Assembly: GCA_024641005.1 (NCBI GenBank) | Contig: JAHEDX010000009.1 | Span: forward strand, 16,564-80,563 | Source: Acidimicrobiaceae bacterium | GTDB taxonomy: Bacteria > Actinomycetota > Acidimicrobiia > Acidimicrobiales > Ilumatobacteraceae | Direction: 5' to 3' | DNA length: 64,000 nucleotides | Shown here: positions 1-16,649 of the stretch, piece after piece | How positions within the stretch are numbered: the first letter of the stretch is position 1 | Layout: the number at the start of each line of letters is the position of its first letter | Program-made: the position numbers and the translations under genes | The notes under the pieces: model-generated | Database searches by the model: none | What the model was told of the DNA's origin: nothing | What the model saw: only the letters and a program-made list of their open reading frames with translations

Positions 1-1910
1 CCCGCCGCAACGCCGGGGGGCGGCGGGACGTCGACGGCATTCAGCACCAAACGGCGCCCGGCATCGAGCGGCGCTGTGCTGTCGAACAACACCGTCTCGC
101 CCGTGCTCTCCCCGAGCGCCACCTGGAGCTGGACCACACCAGGGGACAGCTCGACGTCGACCAGCCCGATCGCGGTGGTCCCGCTGACGGGCACCCGGCG
201 GCGAGCCACCTCGTTGCCATCGGACCGAACGATCACCTCCACATCGTCGCCCCGACGGCCTGTCGGCGCAAGCTGCCCCTCGAGCTGCGCCCCGGGGGTG
301 TGGTCGACGACCACCCGCAGACCAGCCTCGTCGCCATGGCCTGCGTACGGGGCGCGCGTCGCCAAGGCGACACCAGCGATCGACACCAACACCACGCTGA
401 TCGCACCCAGCATGCGACGCCCGGGCACGAGGCGCGTCGCGTCTGCCGAAGGATGTCCGTTGGGGTGAGCGAGCGCATCGACCAACTCCCCCGGCGCCAC
501 CCAGTCCTCGTCGGCGGTACCCGCCCATCGCCGCGGCACGTGAGGAGCACGATCGCCGGCAAGTCGCTCGGCCAATACCGTATTGCCCAAGCCGTAAGCA
601 CAATCACCCGGCGGACAGCCGACGACCTGCACGCGGGTGGCGCCGGCCTGCGCGAGCGACCCGATCGCGTTGGCGTGCACCATGCCCGAGCAGGACACCT
701 CGACCACGGCGACGTCGTCTGCGAACCGATTGGCCGATGTCGATTGCAGGTGGCGGCTACAGGCGATCACCACGTGGCGACCCGTCGGGTCGAACGCCTC
801 CGGTGACTCGAACCCCGGCAGGGCGATGGCGCCGAACGAGCACGACCCGATACAGATACCGCAGCCGACGCACGCATCAGCATCGACGACGGCGCTCGGA
901 CGCAGCGCCTGGGTGCCGGCGGTCGCGTCGGCATCCGAGCGGTCGTGCATCGACAACGCCAGGTACGGGCAGTCGACGACACAGAGCTCGCAGCCCGTGC
1001 ACGCGAGTTCGTCGATCGCGACGACCGGCGGCCGCGAACTTCGAACGTGGGGTGCGATCAACGCCCCAGCGATGACGACCACCAGCAGCCCGACGGCGAA
1101 CCACGCCCACGACGACAGCAGCGGCGGCAGCAGGAACAGCACGAACGGGTCGAGAGGGAGGTCCCCGATCAGTCTGCTGGGATCGGCCGGCCCCAACAGA
1201 TCAGCGGGGAACACCAGTGACACCACCAGGAGCGCACCGAACATGATCGCCATCCAATGACGCGGCGGCAGCACCCGAAGGCGGGTTCGACGAACGTGCC
1301 GCCACACGAAGTATCCGATCACACCGGTCAATGCGAGATGCACGATCCAGATCAGGAACACCACCGGCCAGCCGGTCCCCACGTCGGGCCCAGAGACATT
1401 GCGGACGACGAAGGTCGACACCCACCCAGCGCCGCCGATCACCGAGTCGGTCGCCTCATTGAGCGCTTGCGCCCGACGGTCCCACACCAACCAGTAGCCC
1501 GTGACCCCCGCCATCCACACCGTGACGAGTGAGGCCACTCCAGTCGTCCACCGCCAACGCCGTGGGCCACGAAATCGACCGGCGACGAAGATCCTCCAGG
1601 CGTGCACCAATGTCGTGAGCACCAGCCCGGCCGACGAATACCGGTGAATCGTGCGAACGACGGACTGGATCGGATGATCGTCGATGCGCTGGACGGACGC
1701 GTACGACGCCTCGAAGCCATATTGGAAGAACAAGGTGATGTAGACACCGCTGGCGACGACGACACCGAGCAGGAACACGCTGATCGTGCCGGCGTGCGGC
1801 AAGGGATTCAGCCGATGCGAGCGGACCACCTTGCGAATCGGTGACTCGGCCCGAAACGTGGCCCGCTCGAGTGCCGGAACCAGGCGTGGACGACCTGTTC
1901 GCTCGGTCAT
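1..1910 (-). CDS. Fused cytochrome b / bis-[4Fe-4S] ferredoxin / MvhD-like redox protein (partial, stop outside window)
   Basis: The frame is open from ATG 1910 to the left edge; 636 residues are visible. Residues 40-290 form a membrane cytochrome b domain with two histidine pairs, His89/His103 and His191/His205, each 14 apart, the bis-heme pattern of cytochrome b. Residues 300-360 carry two 4Fe-4S motifs (Cys304, 307, 310, 314 and Cys347, 350, 353, 357). Residues 378-450 resemble the MvhD / hydrogenase iron-sulfur subunit family, with Cys384, Cys407, Cys432 and Cys437. A further hydrophobic helix (about 501-520) and a beta-rich tail follow. The gene starts 58 bases after the oxidase subunit I stop on the same strand. 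It probably passes electrons between a soluble Fe-S or flavin partner and quinone or cytochrome; direction and partner are inference. I know of no characterised protein with this domain order. Confidence 0.85.
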   Translation of the reverse strand, partial: MTERTGRPRLVPALERATFRAESPIRKVVRSHRLNPLPHAGTISVFLLGVVVASGVYITLFFQYGFEASYASVQRIDDHPIQSVVRTIHRYSSAGLVLTTLVHAWRIFVAGRFRGPRRWRWTTGVASLVTVWMAGVTGYWLVWDRRAQALNEATDSVIGGAGWVSTFVVRNVSGPDVGTGWPVVFLIWIVHLALTGVIGYFVWRHVRRTRLRVLPPRHWMAIMFGALLVVSLVFPADLLGPADPSRLIGDLPLDPFVLFLLPPLLSSWAWFAVGLLVVVIAGALIAPHVRSSRPPVVAIDELACTGCELCVVDCPYLALSMHDRSDADATAGTQALRPSAVVDADACVGCGICIGSCSFGAIALPGFESPEAFDPTGRHVVIACSRHLQSTSANRFADDVAVVEVSCSGMVHANAIGSLAQAGATRVQVVGCPPGDCAYGLGNTVLAERLAGDRAPHVPRRWAGTADEDWVAPGELVDALAHPNGHPSADATRLVPGRRMLGAISVVLVSIAGVALATRAPYAGHGDEAGLRVVVDHTPGAQLEGQLAPTGRRGDDVEVIVRSDGNEVARRRVPVSGTTAIGLVDVELSPGVVQLQVALGESTGETVLFDSTAPLDAGRRLVLNAVDVPPPPGVAA

Positions 1911-1968: not shown

Positions 1969-3666
1969 TCACCAGGGCCGGAAGCTGGTACCCGGAGCGT
2001 TCAGATTCATGTGGACGATCTGGTCGATCAGCTGTGGGCCATACGAGAGCAGCAGCAGCACACCGGCCGCGATCAGCCACGGCTTGAACCGGTCGAGCCA
2101 CACGGGCGTGAGCTGTGGGTCGCGCAACGACTCGGCGACCGGCATCTGGGGCACGAGCGCCGCCTCGACCTTCGGCCCCCGAACGGTCTTGATCATCACC
2201 AACAGGTACATCAGCACGGCGACCAGCAGGATCGTGCCACCGATCGACACCCGCAGCAGGTGCCCGTTCCACTCGTCGGGCACGTACAACGCCTCGCCGA
2301 GTGGGGTGCGACGCGGCGCACCCAGCAGCCCCAGCATGTGCATCGCGTTCGAGAAGATGACCATGCCGACGAACCAGGTCCACGACTGGGCAACGGCGAT
2401 CTTGCGGCCCCACAGTTGCTTGCCCATCAGCATCGGCACGAGCCAGTAGGTGATGCCGATGAACGACAATGTGACCGCAGTGGCGACCGTGAGGTGGAAG
2501 TGCCCCGGCACCCAGGCGGTGTTGTGGATCACCAGGTTGATGTTGTAGCTGGCATTCGTCAGCCCACCGATGCCGCCGAACATGAAGAGGATGCCGGCGA
2601 GCAGCTGAGCCGTGACCGATGGATCGTCCCACGGCAACGCCCGAACCCATCCGATCAGGCCTGTGCCTCCTCGGCGGCGTGCCGCGTACTCGAGCGAGGC
2701 GATCACCGTGAACGCGGTCAGCATGGACGGGAAGAACACCGCGTACGTGAGCAGGGCGTGGATCCACTTCCAGACCTGCGGAATGCCGGGGTCGACGAAC
2801 TGGTGGTGGAAACCGACCGGTACGGACACCAGCAGGAACATCCAGAAGCTCAGACGCGCCAGCGAGTCCGAGAACAGCTTGCCGCCGGCCTGCTTGGGCA
2901 ACATGCCGTACCACGACACATAGGCGGGCAGCAGCCAGAAGTACACGAGCGGATGCCCGGTGAACCAGAAGTAGGTGCGCGCCAGTTGGGGATCGGTGGC
3001 GTCGGTGATGCCGAACGACCACGGGATCAGCATCGTCAGCATCTCGACCGCGATGCCGAGGGTCGCTATCTGCCACATCGCGGCGTTGATCACACCTGCC
3101 AGAGCGATGAAGGGTGAGCGGACCCCACGGTTGTCCCGACGCCACGCCCGTAGCGTGAGATAGAAGCCCAGGCCCTCGATCCAGCTCCCGACGACGACCA
3201 ACGTGAGGCCGCAATAGAACGCCCAGCTGGCCTCGAGCGGCGGGTAGAACGTGTAGAGCACCGTGGCCTGGTTGAGCAGCATCGGCACCGCTGCCATGAC
3301 CAGGCCGACGATCATGGTGATGAACCCGACCTGGTTCACCTTCGGGTTGCTCAGGGGGCGTCCGAGGCCCTTGATCGTGGTCAAGTTGGTGAACCCGACG
3401 ATGAAGAATGTGGTCCACACCAACGCGTTCAACACGCCGTGCAGGGTGAGGCCCTGGTAGTAGCTCTTCAGCACGGGTTCGAGGTACTGGTACAGGTCGA
3501 CGTTCGAGAACTCGAGCGCCTGGAGCGGGCCGATCAGGCTGCCGATCGCGAGCGCGGTGATAGCGATGATCAAGTGCCCGCCGATGAATCGGCGTTCCCA
3601 CCGGGTCAGCTCGTAGCCCTGGCGAGCCGTCTCGGTCGCGGTCGCCGGTCGTTCCTCGATCGTCAT
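1969..3666 (-). CDS. cbaA: Cytochrome c oxidase subunit I, ba3 type
   Basis: Catalytic subunit of a heme-copper oxidase (565 residues) that reduces oxygen to water in the membrane. The low-spin heme ligand is His76. The CuB centre is seen as His238 and the His287-His288 pair, with Tyr242 four residues after His238 (motif GHPLVY) as the likely cross-linked tyrosine. The tail motif VPGHFHLT near residue 385 supplies the remaining heme histidines. Spacing and the short subunit II place it in the B family (Thermus ba3-like) rather than the aa3 A family, typical of high-affinity oxygen use. ATG 3666 overlaps the subunit II stop (ATGA). It is the third gene of a minus-strand operon after subunits IIa and II. 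Family placement rests on motif pattern and operon order. Confidence 0.93.
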   Translation of the reverse strand: MTIEERPATATETARQGYELTRWERRFIGGHLIIAITALAIGSLIGPLQALEFSNVDLYQYLEPVLKSYYQGLTLHGVLNALVWTTFFIVGFTNLTTIKGLGRPLSNPKVNQVGFITMIVGLVMAAVPMLLNQATVLYTFYPPLEASWAFYCGLTLVVVGSWIEGLGFYLTLRAWRRDNRGVRSPFIALAGVINAAMWQIATLGIAVEMLTMLIPWSFGITDATDPQLARTYFWFTGHPLVYFWLLPAYVSWYGMLPKQAGGKLFSDSLARLSFWMFLLVSVPVGFHHQFVDPGIPQVWKWIHALLTYAVFFPSMLTAFTVIASLEYAARRRGGTGLIGWVRALPWDDPSVTAQLLAGILFMFGGIGGLTNASYNINLVIHNTAWVPGHFHLTVATAVTLSFIGITYWLVPMLMGKQLWGRKIAVAQSWTWFVGMVIFSNAMHMLGLLGAPRRTPLGEALYVPDEWNGHLLRVSIGGTILLVAVLMYLLVMIKTVRGPKVEAALVPQMPVAESLRDPQLTPVWLDRFKPWLIAAGVLLLLSYGPQLIDQIVHMNLNAPGTSFRPW

Positions 3667-4274
3667 CCCTGGTTCTCCGTGGTCTGCGTGGCGGACGAGT
3701 CGCTGGTCTCAGTGGCCGTGTCGGTGGTGAGCGCCGCATAGTCGGCCTCGGACACGACCTTGACGGTGCCGTACATCGCGGCGTGACCCTGGCCGCAGTA
3801 TTCGGTGCAGATGTAGGGGAACTCCCCGATGTCGTCGAACGTGAACGACAACTTCGACACCTGGCCGGGCACGACCATCATGTTGACGTTCGTGTCGGTG
3901 ATCTTGAACCCGTGTTGGAGGTCGGCGGAAGTGACGTAGATGTCGACCTCGGCACCGACGGGCACGACCAGCTCGCGCGGTGCGAAGTTCCAGGTCTGGG
4001 CCAGCACATAGGCCTCGAACTGTCCGTCACCGATCTGGCGCAGGCCCGGCTGGGCCCAAGGGCCTGACTGGGTGACGGTGCGCGGGTCGAGTTCGGACTC
4101 TGGGCCAGGGAGCTGGAAGCCACCGGCAAATCCGGCGATCGTGATCGCAATGGCGAAGATCACGAGTAGTGCGATCGATACCCGCATCCAGTTCTTCTCC
4201 CATGGGTCGATGCCCATGGTCAACGGTGGTTCGGCGGCGCCGCCGCTCGGGCGCTCGTCGAGTTCGGTACTCAC
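3663..4274 (-). CDS. cbaB: Cytochrome c oxidase subunit II, ba3 type (CuA)
   Basis: Accepts electrons from cytochrome c through the binuclear CuA site on the outer face of the membrane (203 residues). There is one N-terminal membrane helix at about 31-52, then a cupredoxin domain. CuA ligands are visible: His121, Cys156, Glu158 (backbone ligand in the family), Cys160, His164 and Met167, in the block CTEYCGQGHAAM. A single helix and a short soluble domain match ba3 enzymes. The start is GTG 4274, overlapping the stop of the small upstream gene (GTGA); the stop overlaps the start of subunit I (ATGA), so translation is probably coupled. The C-terminal 20 residues are Thr/Ser-rich and look like a flexible tail. 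Confidence 0.93.
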   Translation of the reverse strand: MSTELDERPSGGAAEPPLTMGIDPWEKNWMRVSIALLVIFAIAITIAGFAGGFQLPGPESELDPRTVTQSGPWAQPGLRQIGDGQFEAYVLAQTWNFAPRELVVPVGAEVDIYVTSADLQHGFKITDTNVNMMVVPGQVSKLSFTFDDIGEFPYICTEYCGQGHAAMYGTVKVVSEADYAALTTDTATETSDSSATQTTENQG

Positions 4275-4435: not shown

Positions 4436-4607
4436 ATGTCTGTCTCCCTCTCCCCGGCACTCCCAGTGCCGTCGATGGCATAGTCCAGGGACCAGTGAAC
4501 TTTCTCGTGATACCGCGCAGCCAGGGACCAAGGTCCCTTTCTCCGGACCCTGCTCTTCACCAACAATGGGGCCAGTCCGTACCGACCAGCAGCAACCGAG
4601 GAGCCAC
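4436..4607. promoter_or_regulatory. Divergent control region between the oxidase and bc-complex operons
   Basis: This gap must carry the promoters for both respiratory operons. Visible structure: a hairpin with 7-base arms CGGCACT/AGTGCCG and a 3-base loop at 4455-4471; a direct repeat CCAGGGACCA at 4485-4494 and again at 4521-4530 (36 bases apart); and a second hairpin AGGGACC/GGTCCCT with a 2-base loop at 4523-4538 that includes the second repeat. No convincing -35/-10 pair was found by eye. The repeats could be operator sites for a shared respiratory regulator; this is inference. Confidence 0.5.
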
Positions 4608-5390
4608 ATGGCCGCTGACATCGACGAACCGAGCATCGCGCCGGCACGGTGGTCGCGTTGGCTCCCGTTCCTGGTGTTGTTCGGCGCGCTCGTCGCTGCG
4701 CCCTTCGCCGGCTCGACACGGTCGGTCGACGCGAGCCCCGATGACGACGTGCTGCGCGCCGGCGCCGAAGTGTTCTCCTCGGTGTGCGCGTCGTGCCACC
4801 AGGCCGGCGGCGTCGGACTCGAGGGCAAGTACCCACCGTTGGTCGGCAACCCACACGTCGATGACGCCGCCTATGTCGAAGACGTCATCCGTAACGGCCG
4901 CACCGGCGAGATCATCGTCAACGGGGTCACCTACAACGGGGTGATGCCCGCCCAGGCGACGTTGAGCGATGCCGACATCAATGCCGTGATCGTCTACATC
5001 CAGTCGGGATTCGCTGCACCGGCCGTCGACCTGCCTGCGGTCGATACCGGGCCGGTCGCGGGCACCGAACTTCCGGCGCTCGCCAACTACACCTACCTGG
5101 TGGCACTGTTGATCGCTCTCGGGTTGGGTGCTGTTGTGCTGGGCCCACGTGTGATCGCCGCCAACGACCGTCGTGAGACCCTCTGGCTCGACGCCTGGAT
5201 GAAGACCGCAGTCATCGTGGTGGGCGTGATCGTGTCGGTGGTGTACATCCCGGCCAAGGTGCTCGAGCTCGAAACCGTCCAGGAGCTGCCACGCGCCGGA
5301 CAGGACCTGATTGCGGTCAGTCTCTGGGCCGGTGGTCTGGCCGTCACGCTGCTCGCCTTGTGGTACGCCCACCGGGAGCGGCGGATCTGA
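4608..5390 (+). CDS. Membrane-bound mono-heme cytochrome c with C-terminal helices
   Basis: Class I cytochrome c domain exported on an N-terminal helix (about 16-36). The heme site is CASCH (Cys60, Cys63, His64) and the sixth ligand is probably Met113 in NGVMPAQA. After the heme domain come three hydrophobic segments (about 155-175, 190-210 and 228-250), so the protein is anchored at both ends; 260 residues. ATG 4608 was chosen because GAGG lies just upstream and because export signal and heme domain follow; an in-frame open stretch further upstream has no such support. It is the first gene of a seven-gene operon, and its TGA overlaps the next ATG (TGATG). It likely carries electrons from the bc complex or the neighbouring flavoprotein to the oxidase. 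Confidence 0.85.
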   Translation: MAADIDEPSIAPARWSRWLPFLVLFGALVAAPFAGSTRSVDASPDDDVLRAGAEVFSSVCASCHQAGGVGLEGKYPPLVGNPHVDDAAYVEDVIRNGRTGEIIVNGVTYNGVMPAQATLSDADINAVIVYIQSGFAAPAVDLPAVDTGPVAGTELPALANYTYLVALLIALGLGAVVLGPRVIAANDRRETLWLDAWMKTAVIVVGVIVSVVYIPAKVLELETVQELPRAGQDLIAVSLWAGGLAVTLLALWYAHRERRI

Positions 5391-7198
5391 TGGTCGCCGA
5401 ACTCGAGTACTACGACACCAACATCCCGTGCCTGGCGGCCTGCCCGGTGCACACCAACGCGGGCATGTACGTGGCGGCCATCGCCGACGGCGACGACGAG
5501 TTGGCCTACCTCACCGCCCGGCTGCCCAACCCGTTCGCTTCGGTGTGCGGACGGGTCTGCGCCGCTCCCTGCGAGGACGCGTGCAGACGCGGGGCGATCG
5601 ACCGGCCGATCGCGATCCGAGCGCTGAAACGTTTCGTCACCGAACAGTTCGGCCCCGAGCACGGCGAGAGCGACGCCTGGAACCGGGTGGCCGCGCCTCC
5701 ATCGGAAGAACGCCCCGAGAGCATCGGCATCGTCGGTGGCGGCCCGGCGGGTATGGCCTGTGCCCACGATTTACGACGGCTCGGCTACCAGGTCACCGTC
5801 TACGAAGCCACCGACAAGCTCGGTGGTGCGATGTGGCTGGGCATTCCCGAGTACCGGCTCGACCGCAGCGTGCTCGCAGCCGACATCGACGCCATCGTCG
5901 GCCTCGGTGTCGAGGTGCGTTACGAGACGCGGCTCGGCGTCGACATGACGCTCGACGAGCTGATGGTTCAGCATGATGCCGTATTCCTCGGCATCGGCGC
6001 CACGCTCGGTCGTGGGCTCGACATCGAGGGCGCCGACGCCGACGGAGTGTTCAAGGCGATCGAGTTCCTGATCAACATGAACCGGGGTTTCTCGGTCGAC
6101 GTCGGCGAGCGGGTGGTGGTGATCGGGGGCGGCGATGTCGCGATGGACGCCGCACGCACGGCGCTGCGGGCATCCGAGTACTCGGGCGATCCTCGCGCAT
6201 CCAGTGGCGACTATGTCGTCGCCGATGCCGATGTGGCGGCAGATCAGCGCTCGTCGATGACCGAGGCGATCGACGTCGCCCGCTCGGCTGCACGCGCCGG
6301 TGCCCGCGAGGTCACCGTGGTCTCGCTCGAGTCTCGCGACGAGATGCCGGCTCACGACTTCGAAGTCGAAGAAGCCCAGCACGAAGGCATCACGTTCGTG
6401 CCTCGGCGTGGCCCGGCACGGGTCGTGGTCGACGACGGCCGCGTGGCGGGCATCGAGACGATCGGCGTGACCTCCGTCTTCGACGCCGACGGTCGTTTCG
6501 CTCCACAGTTCGACGACACCGATCGTCAGACCTTCGACGCCGACACCGTGATCCTGGCGATCGGGCAGGCGATCGACCTCGACGCGCTCGGGGTCGACGG
6601 ACCGGCCGTCAGCCCGCGCCGCACGATCCAGATCGACAACAACTCAGGGCGCACCACCATGCCTGGCGTCTGGTCGGGCGGAGACGCCGCCAAGGGCCCG
6701 CGCACACTGATCGATGCGATCGCCGACGGGCGTCGCTCGGCGGCCGACATCCATCAGGCGTTCGGCGGCGACCGAACACCTCCGCAGCCGGCCACCTTCG
6801 TGAAACTCACCCAGTTCCATCGCCTCGACGATGGCTACGACCAGATCGAGCGCGTGTCGGTGCCCACGCTCGACACCGGGCGGCGGATCGGTCTGGCCGA
6901 AGTCGAACTCGGCTTCACCGAGCAGCAGGCGCGCTGCGAGGCGTCGAGATGCCTGCGCTGTTTCGCCAACATCATCCTCGATGTCGACAAGTGCGTGCTG
7001 TGCGCACTCTGTGCCGACGTGTGCCCGGTCGACGTCATCTCACTCGTGCCGTCCGAGGAGATCGACCCCGGCGTCCCGGGAGGCACCGCCCTGCTGCTCG
7101 ACGAGGAGCGATGCATCCGGTGCGCGCTGTGTATCGAACGTTGCCCACCCGACGCTTTGTCGATGGGTCTGTGGAAAGGAGTCGGGGTACCCACATGA
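5390..7198 (+). CDS. GltD/NfnB-like FAD- and NAD(P)H-binding iron-sulfur oxidoreductase
   Basis: A 602-residue flavoprotein of the glutamate-synthase small-subunit type. Residues 14-65 hold six cysteines (14, 18, 53, 57, 61, 65), the N-terminal Fe-S domain of this family. The FAD site is GGGPAG at 116-121 and the pyridine nucleotide site is GGGDVA near 246. Residues 517-525 add CEASRCLRC, and two ferredoxin motifs follow at about 534-544 and 575-585. True GltD lacks this C-terminal bis-[4Fe-4S] ferredoxin, and no large GltB subunit is nearby. Lying between a cytochrome c and cytochrome b gene with start/stop overlaps on both sides, it is probably an electron-input subunit for the membrane complex, oxidising NAD(P)H or ferredoxin. 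That role is inferred from position. Confidence 0.85.
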   Translation: MVAELEYYDTNIPCLAACPVHTNAGMYVAAIADGDDELAYLTARLPNPFASVCGRVCAAPCEDACRRGAIDRPIAIRALKRFVTEQFGPEHGESDAWNRVAAPPSEERPESIGIVGGGPAGMACAHDLRRLGYQVTVYEATDKLGGAMWLGIPEYRLDRSVLAADIDAIVGLGVEVRYETRLGVDMTLDELMVQHDAVFLGIGATLGRGLDIEGADADGVFKAIEFLINMNRGFSVDVGERVVVIGGGDVAMDAARTALRASEYSGDPRASSGDYVVADADVAADQRSSMTEAIDVARSAARAGAREVTVVSLESRDEMPAHDFEVEEAQHEGITFVPRRGPARVVVDDGRVAGIETIGVTSVFDADGRFAPQFDDTDRQTFDADTVILAIGQAIDLDALGVDGPAVSPRRTIQIDNNSGRTTMPGVWSGGDAAKGPRTLIDAIADGRRSAADIHQAFGGDRTPPQPATFVKLTQFHRLDDGYDQIERVSVPTLDTGRRIGLAEVELGFTEQQARCEASRCLRCFANIILDVDKCVLCALCADVCPVDVISLVPSEEIDPGVPGGTALLLDEERCIRCALCIERCPPDALSMGLWKGVGVPT

Positions 7199-7995
7199 GC
7201 CTCACCAAGAACGACCGTGACGAGGCGGTCGGAGCACACGACGGCCCCGACCGGGGCCGCGCCGACGAGCTCGTCGAACGCCTACGCGGCACCCCGGTCG
7301 GCAAGTCGATATTCCGGTCGCCCCGGCGCATCACCCCGCGCGACCGCGCCGCCGGCCACTGGTCGAGCTTCCTGTTGCACATCTACCCCGTCAAGATCCG
7401 CAAGAAGGAACTGGCATTCAAGTACTCGTGGTACCTGGGCGTGGTGTCGATGGTGTTGCTGGGCAGCCTGATCGCCTCGGGTGTGTACCTGATGTTCTTC
7501 TACGTGCCGTCGCCGGCCAACGCCTACACCAACATCCAGACGATCCAGACCGAGGTGCCGTTCGGCCAGTACGTGCGCAACGTGCATCGTTGGTCGGCCC
7601 ACCTGATGGTGCTCGCCGTGGCTGCCCACATGGCCCGCGTCTTCTACCGGGGCGCCTACAAGAAGCCGCGCGAGTTCAACTGGGTGATCGGTGTCGTGTT
7701 GCTGATGCTCACACTGCTGATGTCGTTCACCGGTTACCTGCTGCCGTGGGACCAGTTGGCCTTCTGGGCAGTCACGGTGGGCACCGAGATGGCCGGCTAC
7801 GTGCCGTTCATCGGCGACCAGGTGAAAGAAGTGTTGCTCGGCGGCCCCACGGTCGATTCATCGACCCTGCTGCGGTTCTATGTGCTGCACGTCGCCGTGC
7901 TGCCCACGCTGATCATCTTCGTACTGATGATCCACCTGTGGCGTTGGCGCAAGGACTCGATGTTCGATCAGCAGACGGAGGATGGCGATGAGTGA
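7195..7995 (+). CDS. Cytochrome b, N-terminal half (b6-like)
   Basis: Heme-bearing half of a split cytochrome b (266 residues, four membrane helices). Heme ligands are His131/His145 and His232/His247, spaced 14 and 15, which matches cytochrome b6 rather than mitochondrial-type cytochrome b (14 and 14). The Qo-side motif and the PWDQ loop near 184-187 are present. No cysteine is seen where b6 binds heme cn. ATG 7195 overlaps the flavoprotein stop (ATGA). Together with the next three genes it forms a quinol:cytochrome c oxidoreductase in the cytoplasmic membrane. The first 60 residues are a charged cytoplasmic tail. Confidence 0.93.
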   Translation: MSLTKNDRDEAVGAHDGPDRGRADELVERLRGTPVGKSIFRSPRRITPRDRAAGHWSSFLLHIYPVKIRKKELAFKYSWYLGVVSMVLLGSLIASGVYLMFFYVPSPANAYTNIQTIQTEVPFGQYVRNVHRWSAHLMVLAVAAHMARVFYRGAYKKPREFNWVIGVVLLMLTLLMSFTGYLLPWDQLAFWAVTVGTEMAGYVPFIGDQVKEVLLGGPTVDSSTLLRFYVLHVAVLPTLIIFVLMIHLWRWRKDSMFDQQTEDGDE

Positions 7996-8539
7996 CCTCG
8001 AACATTCGACGCCGGTCGAACTCAGCCGAACGCCCAACAGCGTGGAGGGCAAGCGGGTACTCGGTGTGGTGCCGGGCAAACCGGCCGCCGGCGAGCGCAA
8101 GGTGATCGATCCGGACGACAGCGTGATGGTCTGGCCGCACCTGCTCGTCCGGCACGCTGTCGCGGCGATGGTCACGCTGCTCACCGTCATGGTGATCGCG
8201 GTGTTCTTCGATGCGCCACTGCGCGAGGTGGCCAATCCTCAGAACACACCCAATCCCGAGAAGGCTCCCTGGTATTTCGCAGCACTGCAGGAACTCCTGT
8301 CGATGTTCCACCCGCTCGTGGCCGGCATTCTGATCCCCGGAGCGATCGTGATCGGCCTGGTCGCATTGCCCTACATCGACAACAGCAGGTTCATCAAGCC
8401 ACGCCATCGCAAGGTCGCGGTCACGGCGTTCACGTCGTTCATGGTGATCTGGATCGTGTTGACCCTGATCGGTTTCATGTTCCGCGGGCCCAACTGGGGT
8501 TGGGTGTGGCCCTGGCAAGAATGGCACGGAGAACTATGA
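7988..8539 (+). CDS. Cytochrome b, C-terminal half (subunit IV-like)
   Basis: Three-helix C-terminal half of the split cytochrome b (183 residues), which completes the quinol oxidation site. The PEWY motif of classical Qo sites appears here as KAPWYF, so the glutamate is replaced by alanine; such variants occur in non-photosynthetic bacterial complexes. Two ATGs are possible, 7982 and 7988; GGAGG at 7976-7980 is 7 bases from 7988 but only 1 from 7982, so 7988 is chosen. The gene overlaps the end of the N-terminal half by 8 bases, and its TGA overlaps the Rieske ATG (ATGA), indicating coupled translation of a stoichiometric complex. Confidence 0.92.
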   Translation: MSDLEHSTPVELSRTPNSVEGKRVLGVVPGKPAAGERKVIDPDDSVMVWPHLLVRHAVAAMVTLLTVMVIAVFFDAPLREVANPQNTPNPEKAPWYFAALQELLSMFHPLVAGILIPGAIVIGLVALPYIDNSRFIKPRHRKVAVTAFTSFMVIWIVLTLIGFMFRGPNWGWVWPWQEWHGEL

Positions 8540-9039
8540 GCACCATGAAGAGAAGGCGATTCCTGTCGCACCTGTGGCAGGCGGGCGCAGCCCTGGTCGC
8601 ACTCGCCGGCGCCTGGACCTCGTGGGATCTGTTGCGCCCCGGTGAGGCGAAGGGTTTCGGCGGCAAGATCCGCACGGTGCCGCCCGCCGCGATCCCCGAG
8701 AACGGGGTGATCGAGATCGCTGCCGCCCGCGCCTATCTGGTCAACATCGGCGGCGAGGTCGTCGCGCTCTCGCAGAAGTGCACCCATCTCGGCTGCCGGG
8801 TGCCGTGGTGCGAATCATCCAGCGCGTTCGAATGCCCGTGCCACGGGTCGGTGTTCAACCGGGCCGGCGAGTATCGCGCCGGGCCGGCACCCCGAGGCAT
8901 GGACCGGCATCCGATCGAGGTCGGCACCGACGGTCTGATCTACATCGACACCGGCTCCACCGAAGACGGCCCTCCGCCGGGCCCCGAGACGATCGACGAG
9001 CCGGTCACCGGTCCGAACTGCGCACAGGGAGCCGAGTGA
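8536..9039 (+). CDS. Rieske [2Fe-2S] protein of the cytochrome bc/b6 complex
   Basis: Moves electrons from quinol to cytochrome c (167 residues). The cluster ligands are Cys82/His84 in CTHLGC and Cys100/His103 in CPCHGS; Cys87 and Cys102 form the conserved disulfide. The N-terminus KRRRFL followed by a hydrophobic helix (residues 12-28) resembles a Tat-type signal anchor, the usual export route for Rieske proteins. The protein ends in an acidic Pro/Glu-rich tail. ATG 8536 overlaps the subunit IV stop, and TGA 9037-9039 overlaps the next ATG. Confidence 0.95.
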   Translation: MSTMKRRRFLSHLWQAGAALVALAGAWTSWDLLRPGEAKGFGGKIRTVPPAAIPENGVIEIAAARAYLVNIGGEVVALSQKCTHLGCRVPWCESSSAFECPCHGSVFNRAGEYRAGPAPRGMDRHPIEVGTDGLIYIDTGSTEDGPPPGPETIDEPVTGPNCAQGAE

Positions 9040-9497
9040 TGCCCTACGAGTACGCCAACGACGACGACATCGAGCGATCGACCAACACCTGGATGGTGGC
9101 CGGGGTTGCGCTGCTGTTCCTGATGGCGCTGGTGTTCCCGTTCTACCGCTGGTACGAGCCCGCAGCGCGCGCCGACAGCCGCGAGCTGCAGGCGGCCTCG
9201 CTGGCCGCCGAGGGTGAGAGTGTGTGGACGTACAGCTGCGCCTCGTGTCATGGAACTTCGGGCGAAGGTGCCGTCGGCCCCGCGCTCAACTCCAAGCAAT
9301 TCCTGCAGTCGGCGACCGACGCCCAGGTGGGGACCTTGATCGCCGTGGGCATCCCCGGTACACAGATGAACGCGTTCTCGCTCGATCACGGCGGCCCGCT
9401 CACCTCCGAGCAGATCAAATCGGTGGTCGCCTACATCCGCTCGTGGGAGCCGAATGCTCCGGATCGGCCGGACTGGCGTGACATGGTCGGCGGTTGA
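9039..9497 (+). CDS. Membrane-anchored mono-heme cytochrome c
   Basis: A 152-residue class I cytochrome c with one N-terminal anchor helix (about 18-36). The heme motif is CASCH (Cys67, Cys70, His71) and the likely axial methionine is Met110 in GTQMNAF. It follows the Rieske gene and may serve as the c1/f-like acceptor of the complex, handing electrons to the oxidase. The start overlaps the Rieske stop (TGATG), and the TGA overlaps the TTG of the next gene. The operon therefore holds two mono-heme cytochromes c at opposite ends; which is the physiological electron acceptor cannot be told from sequence. Confidence 0.9.
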   Translation: MPYEYANDDDIERSTNTWMVAGVALLFLMALVFPFYRWYEPAARADSRELQAASLAAEGESVWTYSCASCHGTSGEGAVGPALNSKQFLQSATDAQVGTLIAVGIPGTQMNAFSLDHGGPLTSEQIKSVVAYIRSWEPNAPDRPDWRDMVGG

Positions 9498-14771: not shown

Positions 14772-16649
14772 GTGACGACTGACTTCGAAGCCCGCGTGCA
14801 GGAATGGCGGCCCGATCTCGATGCTGCGCTGTGCGGGCTCTACGGCGACGACGCCGGCCGGATCGGTGATCAGCTGGTCGCGGCCGCACGCCGGGTGAAC
14901 GAGCGACGCGACCCCGAGCTGATCGACCTCGACCGGTCACGGGCAGCAGCACCGTTCTGGTACCAGCAACCGCAACGGGTCGGCTACATGGCGTACGTCG
15001 ACCGCTTCGGCGGCGACCTGGCCGGGGTGCGGGCGCGGATCCCCTATCTCGACGAGCTCGGGGTCGACACCCTCCACCTCTTGTCGCTCCTGCAGCCGCG
15101 CCTCGGCGAGAGCGACGGAGGCTACGCCGTTCGTGACTACCGTGTGCCCGACGCCCGGCTGGGCACCCCTGCCGACCTCGACGATCTGATCACCGATCTG
15201 AGGCATCACGGGATCAGCCTGTGCGTCGACTTCGTGCTCAACCACACCAGCGATGATCACGAATGGGCGACTGCCGCCAAAGCCGGCTCCGAGTACCACC
15301 GGGCGCTCTATCGGATGTACGCCGATCGCACCGAGCCGGACGAGTGGGAGCAGAGCTTGCCGGAGGTGTTCCCCGAACTCTCGCCCGGCAGCTTCACGTG
15401 GAACGCCGACCTGGGCCGATGGGTGTGGACCACGTTCCGCGAGTTCCAGTGGGACCTCGACTGGTCCAACCCCGACGTGATGCTCGAGGTGTGCGCGCTC
15501 GCATTGCATCTCGCGAACCTCGGTGTCGAGATCCTCCGGCTCGACGCGATCGCATTCACTTGGAAGCGCCGTGGCACGAACTGTCAGAACCAACCGGAAG
15601 CGCACCTCATTGCTCAGGCCCTGCGGGCCACGATGGCGATGGCTGCGCCCGCGTGCCTACTGCTCGCCGAGGCGATCGTCGGACCCGACGACCTGGTCGG
15701 ATATCTCGGCCGGCACGAACGCGAACGTCGCGAGTGTGAGCTGGGCTACCACAACCAGCTGATGGTGCAGTGCTGGTCGATGCTCGCGTCACGTCGCGCC
15801 GACCTTGCGCGCAACGCCATGGCCCGACTACCCGACACCCCCGGACGAGCCACCTGGTTCACATATGTGCGTTGCCACGATGACATCGGCTGGGCGATCG
15901 ACGATGTCGATGCCGAAAGCATCGGTGTCACTGGCGCGGGGCACCGCGAGTTCCTGGCCGCGTTCTACCGAGGCGATTTCTGGCAGTCGTTCGCCCGAGG
16001 GGTGCCCTTCGGCGTCAATCCGGCGACGAACGACGAGCGCACCAGCGGCATGACATCGACCCTCGCAGGCGTGGCGGCCGCGCTCACGGGCGACGACGCG
16101 AACGACCTCGATCTGGCCGTGCAACGGATGCTGCTCGTCTACGGGATCGTGTTCGGCTACGGCGGCATCCCGGTCATCTACATGGGTGACGAACTCTGCC
16201 AGGGAGACGACCGCTCGTATGTCGACGACCCCGACCGCGCCGCGGACAGCCGCTGGACCCACCGACCGGAGTTCGACGATCGAGCTGCTGGCGAGCGGCA
16301 GGATCCGTCGACGCTGACCGGTCGCGTGTGGGCAGGGATGCGACACCTGATCGAGACGAGGAAGGCCTGTCAACCACTCCACGACGACGATGCCGTCGTG
16401 CGCCTGTTCGACCCCGGCTACTCGTCGGTGTTCGCCTGGCACCACCACCATCCCCGGTTCGGGGACATGGTCGGACTGGCGAATGTCGGGCACACCGTTG
16501 CCGTCGTCGACCGGCACCCGACACTGCCGGCCGGGGCCATCGACGTGCTCGCTCCCGAGGACCCGGATCCGTGGCGGCTGGCACCACTCCAGGTGCGGTG
16601 GATCACCTCCGAGCGCGGGTACGCGACGATCCCGCATCCAGCCTCATGA
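14772..16649 (+). CDS. Amylosucrase-like GH13 glucosyltransferase
   Basis: A 625-residue GH13 enzyme closest in pattern to amylosucrase, which builds alpha-1,4-glucan from sucrose, or to related sucrose hydrolases. Catalytic signatures: nucleophile Asp258 in RLDAIAF, acid/base Glu300 in LLAEAIV, and the stabilising aspartate at 370-371 in RCHDDIGW, the last being diagnostic of the amylosucrase group. FVLNHTSDDHEWA is also typical. GTG 14772 is the chosen start; ATG codons further upstream lie inside the divergent oxidoreductase gene. The stop overlaps the next ATG (ATGA), coupling it to a potassium channel gene. No signal peptide is seen, so it acts in the cytoplasm. Confidence 0.88.
   Translation: MTTDFEARVQEWRPDLDAALCGLYGDDAGRIGDQLVAAARRVNERRDPELIDLDRSRAAAPFWYQQPQRVGYMAYVDRFGGDLAGVRARIPYLDELGVDTLHLLSLLQPRLGESDGGYAVRDYRVPDARLGTPADLDDLITDLRHHGISLCVDFVLNHTSDDHEWATAAKAGSEYHRALYRMYADRTEPDEWEQSLPEVFPELSPGSFTWNADLGRWVWTTFREFQWDLDWSNPDVMLEVCALALHLANLGVEILRLDAIAFTWKRRGTNCQNQPEAHLIAQALRATMAMAAPACLLLAEAIVGPDDLVGYLGRHERERRECELGYHNQLMVQCWSMLASRRADLARNAMARLPDTPGRATWFTYVRCHDDIGWAIDDVDAESIGVTGAGHREFLAAFYRGDFWQSFARGVPFGVNPATNDERTSGMTSTLAGVAAALTGDDANDLDLAVQRMLLVYGIVFGYGGIPVIYMGDELCQGDDRSYVDDPDRAADSRWTHRPEFDDRAAGERQDPSTLTGRVWAGMRHLIETRKACQPLHDDDAVVRLFDPGYSSVFAWHHHHPRFGDMVGLANVGHTVAVVDRHPTLPAGAIDVLAPEDPDPWRLAPLQVRWITSERGYATIPHPAS

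Follow-up and report, generated by a model that had tools for sequence, protein, structure and literature searches.

The 64,000-nucleotide stretch analysed here (the window; positions 16,564 to 80,563 of contig JAHEDX010000009.1 of an Acidimicrobiaceae bacterium, assembly GCA_024641005.1) opens on a minus-strand gene that joins, in a single chain, a di-heme membrane cytochrome b, a pair of [4Fe-4S] ferredoxin motifs and an MvhD-like (FlpD) domain. This fusion is a real, conserved and apparently uncharacterised component of the operons of B-family heme-copper enzymes, in which known modules are newly arranged. The observed basis is its domains, ligand conservation, gene order, co-occurrence and the presence of a fused or free cytochrome c. 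Our favoured interpretation, whose probability we place a little short of an even chance, is that the fusion serves as a dedicated membrane electron-transfer subunit for one B-family heme-copper clade, namely ba3 O2 reductases and, in a sister clade, eNOR-type nitric oxide (NO) reductases.

The gene begins with an ATG at 1910 and remains open for 636 codons down to base 3 of the minus strand (Table 1). A preliminary description, made from the letters of the DNA, had recognised one uninterrupted frame with cytochrome b, ferredoxin and MvhD-like regions, and the Pfam searches that it proposed bear this out. Cytochrome_B (PF00033) matches residues 34-145 with 47.1 bits (cut-off 27.2), Fer4_7 (PF12838) residues 304-361 with 36.3 bits (cut-off 27) and FlpD (PF02662) residues 391-450 with 36.9 bits (cut-off 22.3), the last being the single match to that family in the whole source genome. 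The first match and the four heme histidines place the membrane part among cytochromes b/b6, just as the third match, with its cysteines aligned to the chains 9sw2_D and 5odc_D, places the following part in the FlpD/MvhD family. The C terminus of the window copy cannot be read because the gene enters 100 N lying directly before base 1 (L002:10465-10564, equal to C28:16464-16563), by their look a scaffold gap. In most relatives a cytochrome c domain follows the periplasmic domain, and it is missing in the window copy because of this gap. The architecture first given was correct in the domains listed but incomplete: in relatives the chain also has a seventh membrane helix, a β-rich domain in the periplasm and, usually, the cytochrome c.

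Ligand conservation was assessed in an alignment of 81 rows, made up of 80 loci (see below) and the window, in which gaps stem from fragments. The proposed heme ligands, His 89/103 and 191/205, are histidine in every row having a letter there (78/78 or 79/79). The eight ferredoxin cysteines (304, 307, 310, 314, 347, 350, 353 and 357) are present in 81/81 rows, and the four FlpD cysteines (384, 407, 432 and 437) in 80/80 rows with a letter. The heme histidines are those given in the preliminary description, which had also counted eight ferredoxin and four MvhD-like cysteines. Profile comparison with solved MvhD/VhuD chains sets Cys 407, 432 and 437 against their RVMC and GC..GDC cysteines; Cys 384 is matched to the CC/NWC region in a single one (9sw2_D) of four profile alignments shown, the other three starting after this residue. 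A further histidine, residue 39 (window 1794-1796, minus strand), is kept in 77/78 rows with a letter and aligns with the cysteine position of cytochrome b6 (1q90_B and 2zt9_A). In cytochrome b6 this cysteine holds heme c_n; the placement of His39 at the heme c_n position is striking, and no function follows from it.

That the window copy borders the 100 N, and that nearly all carriers among the best 80 loci are titled as metagenome-assembled genomes (MAGs), might suggest an assembly, annotation or chimera artefact. Against this, the same architecture with invariant ligands recurs in the 81 rows, from many assemblies, and an orthologue gives a confident single-chain model. The artefact is refuted for the family, and we attach practically no probability to it.

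The link of the fusion to the ba3 oxidase is strong. The neighbouring COX1 of the window matches the ba3-type oxidase 1ehk and its kin with an E-value of about 1e-144 and belongs to the ba3 (B-family) oxidases by its sequence and its cross-link Tyr. This Tyr is present in 69/70 COX1 sequences linked to the main group of fusions, the remaining one being a fragment without the motif. Among the loci with at least 2.5 kb upstream, the order COX2-COX1-fusion on the same strand is seen in 65/68; of the three exceptions, L079 shows no oxidase, L102 has a bc cluster instead and in L104 the COX1 lies ~8 kb off, cut by the locus end. The preliminary description had called for a survey of the oxidase adjacency in Acidimicrobiia, the source class. 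In a sample of 296 genomes of this class, a close COX1 (at least 63% identity) is encoded in 22, of which 20 have the fusion; none of the 274 genomes without a close COX1 has it. A distant COX1 (46-48%) in five class genomes, two of them among the 20 carriers, leaves the co-occurrence unchanged. Distances between fusions and between COX1 sequences are correlated (r 0.865 for 67 loci and the window; 0/2000 Mantel permutations as high), a value confounded by common descent.

The 20 carriers in the class sample include the source genome itself. The homologues in the other 19 are near full-length, at 36-50% identity, and keep the whole domain order followed by a cytochrome c domain (CxxCH in 19/19). 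The four heme His, eight ferredoxin Cys and four FlpD Cys are invariant in all 20. Within the source genus only the source genome, among three sampled, has the fusion, and a phylum sample yields it in 3/296 genomes, all within the source class. A scan of named genomes retrieved 298 relatives, the best 80 of which form the locus set used here. By title, 54 of these 80 are Chloroflexota (Anaerolineae, Caldilineae, Villigracilaceae and others), and the others are for the most part MAGs of Acidimicrobiia, Ilumatobacter among them. L055 comes from a Chloroflexi genome in whose class 45/249 genomes match at E ≤ 1e-50, the sister clade included. Given this share of Chloroflexota, together with a sister clade found near eNOR-type NO reductases, the fusion is not a speciality of Acidimicrobiia, the class in which the preliminary description had proposed to survey it.

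A CxxCH motif near the C terminus, indicating a fused c domain, is found in 69/81 rows. The window row apart, 11 rows lack it, and in seven of these (L075, L091, L092, L093, L105, L107 and L110) a free monoheme, lipoprotein-like cytochrome c is encoded just upstream. Of the rest, L102 has only the cytochrome c of the bc cluster in that place and L104 no cytochrome c at all there; L082 and L106 are truncated or give no information. Compared with PDB sequences, the c domain matches the diheme protein 7zs0 best (E 2e-21), followed by the c domain of 1w2l, an entry named ‘cytochrome oxidase subunit II’ (E 5e-13). Since the c domain is either fused or free upstream, electron exchange with cytochrome c would seem the likeliest constant of the system.

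Paralogues of ~36% identity, in Chloroflexota and in one genome of the source class (G058), lie in loci with a different COX2-COX1 pair. Among 14 further stretches, the sister-clade gene is near eNOR-type COX2-COX1 genes in 10 (L113-L119, L121, L122 and L126); L120, L123 and L124 show no oxidase genes and L125 is of the O2-reductase type. The COX1 proteins in question have the motif GHPAQQ, in which Gln takes the place of the cross-link Tyr in 10/10. Since this Gln is given as defining eNOR in PMC8756737, all ten can be assigned to eNOR by sequence. The paralogue directly follows COX1 in L121 and L126. A quick tree was made of 89 rows, comprising the window, 76 of the best 80 loci (without L038, L066, L096 and L106) and 12 further loci (without L121); some loci with no phylum in their title were labelled Actino by the analyst. 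In this tree the 11 sister-clade rows form one clade with a support of 100. Nine of them have an eNOR-type COX1 in the locus, L123 and L124 showing no oxidase, and all 11 are without a c domain. We consider the sister-clade link to eNOR to be good. Two of these loci have further features. Upstream of the eNOR genes and paralogue in L126 lies a cytochrome d1 nitrite reductase (L126:2254-4395; PF02239) with N-terminal cytochrome c domains, so that the cluster joins NO2- and NO reduction. The G058 paralogue is part of a 1671-residue open frame (L121:4790-9802), the first ~1000 residues of which match no Pfam family and are probably a long GC-rich open frame.

The fold and topology of the fusion are supported by prediction. 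An AlphaFold2 (AF2) model was made on the L034 orthologue, which is 70% identical and has a complete C terminus, with 71 aligned rows (row set A2, 71/80 loci; left out were L035, L038, L048, L064, L066, L082, L093, L096 and L106). Its mean predicted local distance difference test score (pLDDT) is 90.2 and its predicted template modelling score (pTM) 0.86. Seven helices are predicted to lie in the membrane. Loops rich in K/R are on what is predicted to be the cytosolic face, an arrangement that would leave the c domain outside and the ferredoxin and FlpD parts, like the N terminus, inside. In a Foldseek search with this model, all 50 rows shown are cytochrome b of bc1 and b6f complexes. Since the match is confined to the membrane part, the query-normalised TM-scores are as low as 0.20-0.30. 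Alignments of ~280-320 columns to full-length cytochrome b mostly have a root mean square deviation (rmsd) of 4.6-7.5 Å, and those of over 340 columns one near 13-14 Å. Judging from the alignment lengths, helices 215-231 and 267-287 would sit where helices E and F of cytochrome b lie. A sequence-profile comparison of these two helices with subunit IV is not significant (probability 0.2, E 0.25), so that their homology to helices E and F is argued from structure.

How might such a protein work? Under the interpretation that we favour, electrons would come from a cytosolic low-potential donor, either ferredoxin or NAD(P)H by way of an interchangeable flavoprotein, and would enter at the FlpD [2Fe-2S] cluster and/or the 2x[4Fe-4S] module, provided that these sites are occupied. 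They would then cross the membrane through heme bH and, next, heme bL, reach the tethered or neighbouring cytochrome c and finally, if fusion and oxidase associate physically, pass to subunit II and on to O2 or NO. Electron input is the most economical reading. It agrees with the constant parts (hemes, ferredoxin, oxidase and cytochrome c) and with the variable parts too, that is the FlpD cluster and the fused or free c, as well as coexistence with a bc complex or ActD in 37/40 genomes. Where the preliminary description spoke of an ‘electron-input or electron-sharing protein’, it is the electron-transfer role that stands, as the natural reading of the fusion together with a ba3-type oxidase.

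Several points weigh against electron input by this route. No electron donor was identified, and the neighbouring flavoprotein (see below) has no long match in 5/20 class and 17/24 Chloroflexota fusion-bearing genomes. Moving electrons outward, to the periplasm from the cytosol, would be paid for in membrane potential. Six sister-clade proteins, which form one clade (L113-L116, L118 and L119), have lost all four FlpD cysteines and kept their heme and ferredoxin ligands, so the FlpD cluster is not always in the electron path. With the whole L034 model, the 50 Foldseek rows shown are cytochrome b throughout and include neither a ferredoxin nor an FlpD chain, so the FlpD fold is assigned from sequence. 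The oxidase can do without the fusion, because two class genomes, G090 and G101, carry a close COX1 with no fusion beside it; in G101 (L128:7152-9263) COX2-COX1 is followed at once by a cytochrome c gene, and the three other sampled species of its genus have the fusion. In most eNOR loci (L113-L116, L118, L119 and L122) the paralogue is on the same strand as the eNOR genes but 3-4.5 kb away, with other genes between (one of those in L113 encodes a P-type ATPase); the L117 paralogue is divergent from the eNOR genes. Finally, the predicted cytochrome b fold would equally allow quinol oxidation; for the ‘quinone-type membrane cytochrome’ of the preliminary description, the fold agrees with cytochrome b and a quinone site is putative.

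Such oxidation is at the heart of an alternative that we consider unlikely, a quinol-driven bifurcating or reverse-flow device. Menaquinol would be oxidised near heme bL, one electron going to cytochrome c and the oxidase. The second would travel over bL, bH and then the Fe-S clusters to reach ferredoxin or NAD(P)+ as its acceptor in the cytosol, so that O2 reduction would drive the formation of low-potential reductant. The alignment of the L034 model with full-length cytochrome b, its two extra helices included, is consistent with this, as is the resemblance of the Fe-S module to that of HdrA2. So are the residues conserved at the predicted periplasmic end (Tyr57, Phe61, Trp140 and Asp144 in 78/78 rows with a letter, Asp254 in 81/81), which are compatible with a Qo-like site. 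However, the chain has neither a Rieske domain nor a PF00032 match, the profile match to subunit IV is not significant, and the region of PEWY, a motif of cytochrome b, is altered in the fusion consensus. Moreover, a bc-cluster cytochrome b6 is seen in only 13/80 loci, many of them short. It is likewise improbable that the fusion is a simple quinol:cytochrome c reductase dedicated to the oxidase, with the ferredoxin/FlpD part acting as redox sensor, gate or assembly part. A cytochrome b fold combined with a cytochrome c domain would suit this role, as would the loss of the FlpD cysteines in one group that keeps the rest. Yet the eight ferredoxin cysteines are retained even where those of FlpD are lost (the one substitution, to Asp, is in L121, where the FlpD Cys are kept), and 37/40 genomes already have a bc complex or ActD.

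The relationship to complex III can be examined more directly. The fusion is not itself a bc1/b6f member, having no PF00032 or Rieske match in Pfam. PF00032 is encoded in 53 of 68 fusion-bearing genomes, namely 20/20 class carriers and 33/48 genomes of Chloroflexota loci. Surveys of ActD, from alternative complex III, and of NrfD used 40 of the 68; a bc complex or ActD is present in 37/40, with neither in G302, G313 and G342. The fusion therefore need not stand in for complex III, and replacement of complex III as its sole role is rejected on these frequencies. NrfD was dropped as a complex III marker, being too unspecific (37/40 genomes).

The preliminary description had also paired the fusion with the GltD-like flavoprotein at 5390, whose best NCBIfam match is PRK12771, below its cut-off. 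That the fusion is an electron-input protein fed specifically by this flavoprotein now seems quite unlikely. The two genes adjoin in the window, and an orthologue of the flavoprotein was found in 15/20 fusion-bearing class genomes and in 8/26 fusion-free ones, the latter controls being hand-picked and at most 18 first-look candidates being scored per genome. It is also present in 14/80 loci, or 11/33 of those that extend 7.5 kb or more upstream and 6.5 kb or more downstream. On the other hand, a long match is found in only 7/24 fusion-bearing Chloroflexota genomes, and in 13 of the 14 loci the flavoprotein sits with bc-type genes, L074, the 14th, being cut inside it. This patchy distribution rules out the flavoprotein as an obligate partner. 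In the window it directly precedes the bc-type genes (5378-9497), a pair that recurs in 13/80 loci; from gene order, the flavoprotein and bc genes could together encode a separate complex III linked to a flavoprotein.

Each part of the fusion has known counterparts. The C-terminal region of HdrA2 has the same order of 2x[4Fe-4S] followed by FlpD (NF040770 positions 573-727), but the fusion lacks the HdrA flavin domain and has a membrane cytochrome attached; it is no HdrA2/heterodisulfide reductase, as only residues 298-450 match, at 41 versus 1100 bits. MvhD/VhuD, the delta subunit of F420-non-reducing hydrogenase, shares the FlpD domain with aligned cysteines but is a separate subunit. According to PMC12350162, homologues of MvhD bind a [2Fe-2S] cluster close to the flavin of HdrA and hand electrons on to a partner flavin; for the fusion both would be predictions. 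No hydrogenase or Hdr genes were noticed in the neighbourhoods of the fusion, where they were not searched for systematically; a match to the NiFe hydrogenase large subunit is present in the source genome on another contig (C131). Cytochrome b6 and the cytochrome b of bc complexes resemble the fusion in fold and in the four heme His, but the fusion has no Rieske protein in its chain, has His39 at the b6 Cys and carries fused cytosolic Fe-S and periplasmic c domains. As in the oxidase-associated cytochrome c 1w2l, which we take to be the c domain of R. marinus caa3, a C-terminal monoheme c is found beside the oxidase, although the diheme 7zs0 scores higher. In 1w2l, to go by the entry name, the c domain is on subunit II, whereas here it is on the cytochrome b/ferredoxin chain. 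Like the sister-clade loci, the eNOR operons of Chloroflexota have an eNOR-type COX1 with Gln at the cross-link Tyr.

The accounts of eNOR in PMC4653789 and in the accessible part of PMC8756737 describe no such fusion protein with eNOR; Ardenticatena eNOR is in an operon with NirK, and a fusion-like protein is not mentioned (PMC4653789). Nevertheless, Table A3 of a paper on Chloroflexi NirS lists one open reading frame, RME88945.1, with homologues of cytochrome b6 (PRK03735), DMSOR_beta-like, FlpD and a ‘C1’ cytochrome c (PMC8756737). From these table rows, RME88945.1 is very probably a member of the fusion family; the text available says nothing about its domain order, its linkage to an oxidase, its conservation or its function. 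The available portions of PMC8446752, PMC5826079 and PMC5736913 do not mention a fusion-like protein. No functional description and no characterised protein with the domain order of the fusion was found in open-licence PMC papers, as far as their accessible text goes, so that, this one table entry aside, the supposition that the protein is undescribed as to function has held.

The electrons for B-family oxidases and eNORs are usually taken to come from soluble cytochrome c or cupredoxin. It is possible, if rather less than an even bet, that a widespread, uncharacterised class of heme-copper O2/NO reductases receives electrons directly from the low-potential pool of the cytosol, over a membrane-crossing wire of ferredoxin, MvhD, cytochrome b and cytochrome c that bypasses quinone and complex III or, in reverse, makes low-potential reductant from quinol and O2 or NO. 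Either direction, if true, would be a respiratory link between ferredoxin and B-family heme-copper enzymes, of which no description was found in open-licence PMC papers. A conserved third gene tying periplasmic electron entry to cytosolic Fe-S would redraw electron flow in many Chloroflexota and some Acidimicrobiia, and yields a testable hypothesis on how O2 and NO could be removed directly with fermentative reductant. The MvhD-type domain, known from bifurcation in methanogens, is in any case also present in an oxygen-respiration operon. As a wrong annotation as oxidase seems to be common among genes for eNOR (PMC8756737), the fusion may also be a useful marker for finding these enzymes.

Table 1. 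Coordinates of the fusion gene, its parts and neighbouring genes in the window.
Feature	Position	Strand	Evidence
Fusion gene (cytochrome b - 2x[4Fe-4S] ferredoxin - FlpD/MvhD - transmembrane helix - periplasmic domain)	3..1910	−	Open frame, gap, Pfam, relatives
Cytochrome b6-like four-helix domain, heme-ligand His 89, 103, 191, 205	1296..1811	−	PF00033/PF13631, conservation, alignment to 1q90_B and 2zt9_A, fold
Two further membrane helices (predicted), ~residues 219-290, invariant Asp254	1041..1256	−	AF2 model of L034 orthologue, Foldseek
Two [4Fe-4S] ferredoxin motifs, residues 302-361, predicted cytosolic	828..1007	−	PF12838/PF00037; 8 Cys conserved
FlpD/MvhD-like domain, residues 384-450, Cys 384/407/432/437	561..761	−	PF02662; profile match to MvhD/VhuD chains
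Seventh transmembrane helix, approximate	360..422	−	Alignment with helix 494-514 of L034 model
Periplasmic β-rich domain	3..359	−	Relatives, conservation, L034 model
ba3-type (B-family) heme-copper oxidase subunit I, active-site Tyr motif GHPLVY	1969..3666	−	PF00115; 1ehk and kin
Oxidase subunit II with COX2 domain (putative CuA)	3663..4274	−	PF00116
Cytochrome c, start uncertain, divergent from oxidase genes	4494..5390	+	PF13442
GltD-like flavoprotein, C-terminal 2x[4Fe-4S], start uncertain	5378..7198	+	PF07992, PF14691, PF12838
bc-type complex, separate: cytochrome b6 7201-7995, subunit IV 7982-8539, Rieske 8515-9039, cytochrome c 9036-9497	7201..9497	+	Pfam

Other genes recur around the oxidase operons. 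SCO-type and PCuAC-like proteins and an extra cytochrome c, named by eye from their sequences, are repeatedly found nearby, and Pfam assigns SCO1/SenC to a neighbouring gene in the window itself. A regulator of the Rrf2 family is encoded ~3.9 kb upstream of the fusion in L051 (5616-6116; TIGR00738 above cut-off) and belongs to a BLAST group of 21 loci; such a neighbour suggests Fe-S/NO/redox-responsive control. A NarQ/NarX-like sensor kinase, below cut-off, lies upstream of the oxidase cluster in L060 (1766-3760), with a BLAST group of 9 loci. Lastly, a flavoprotein resembling sulfide:quinone reductase, well below the family cut-off, is found in L055 (13253-14689) and 8 other loci, a median of ~0.8 kb downstream of the fusion.

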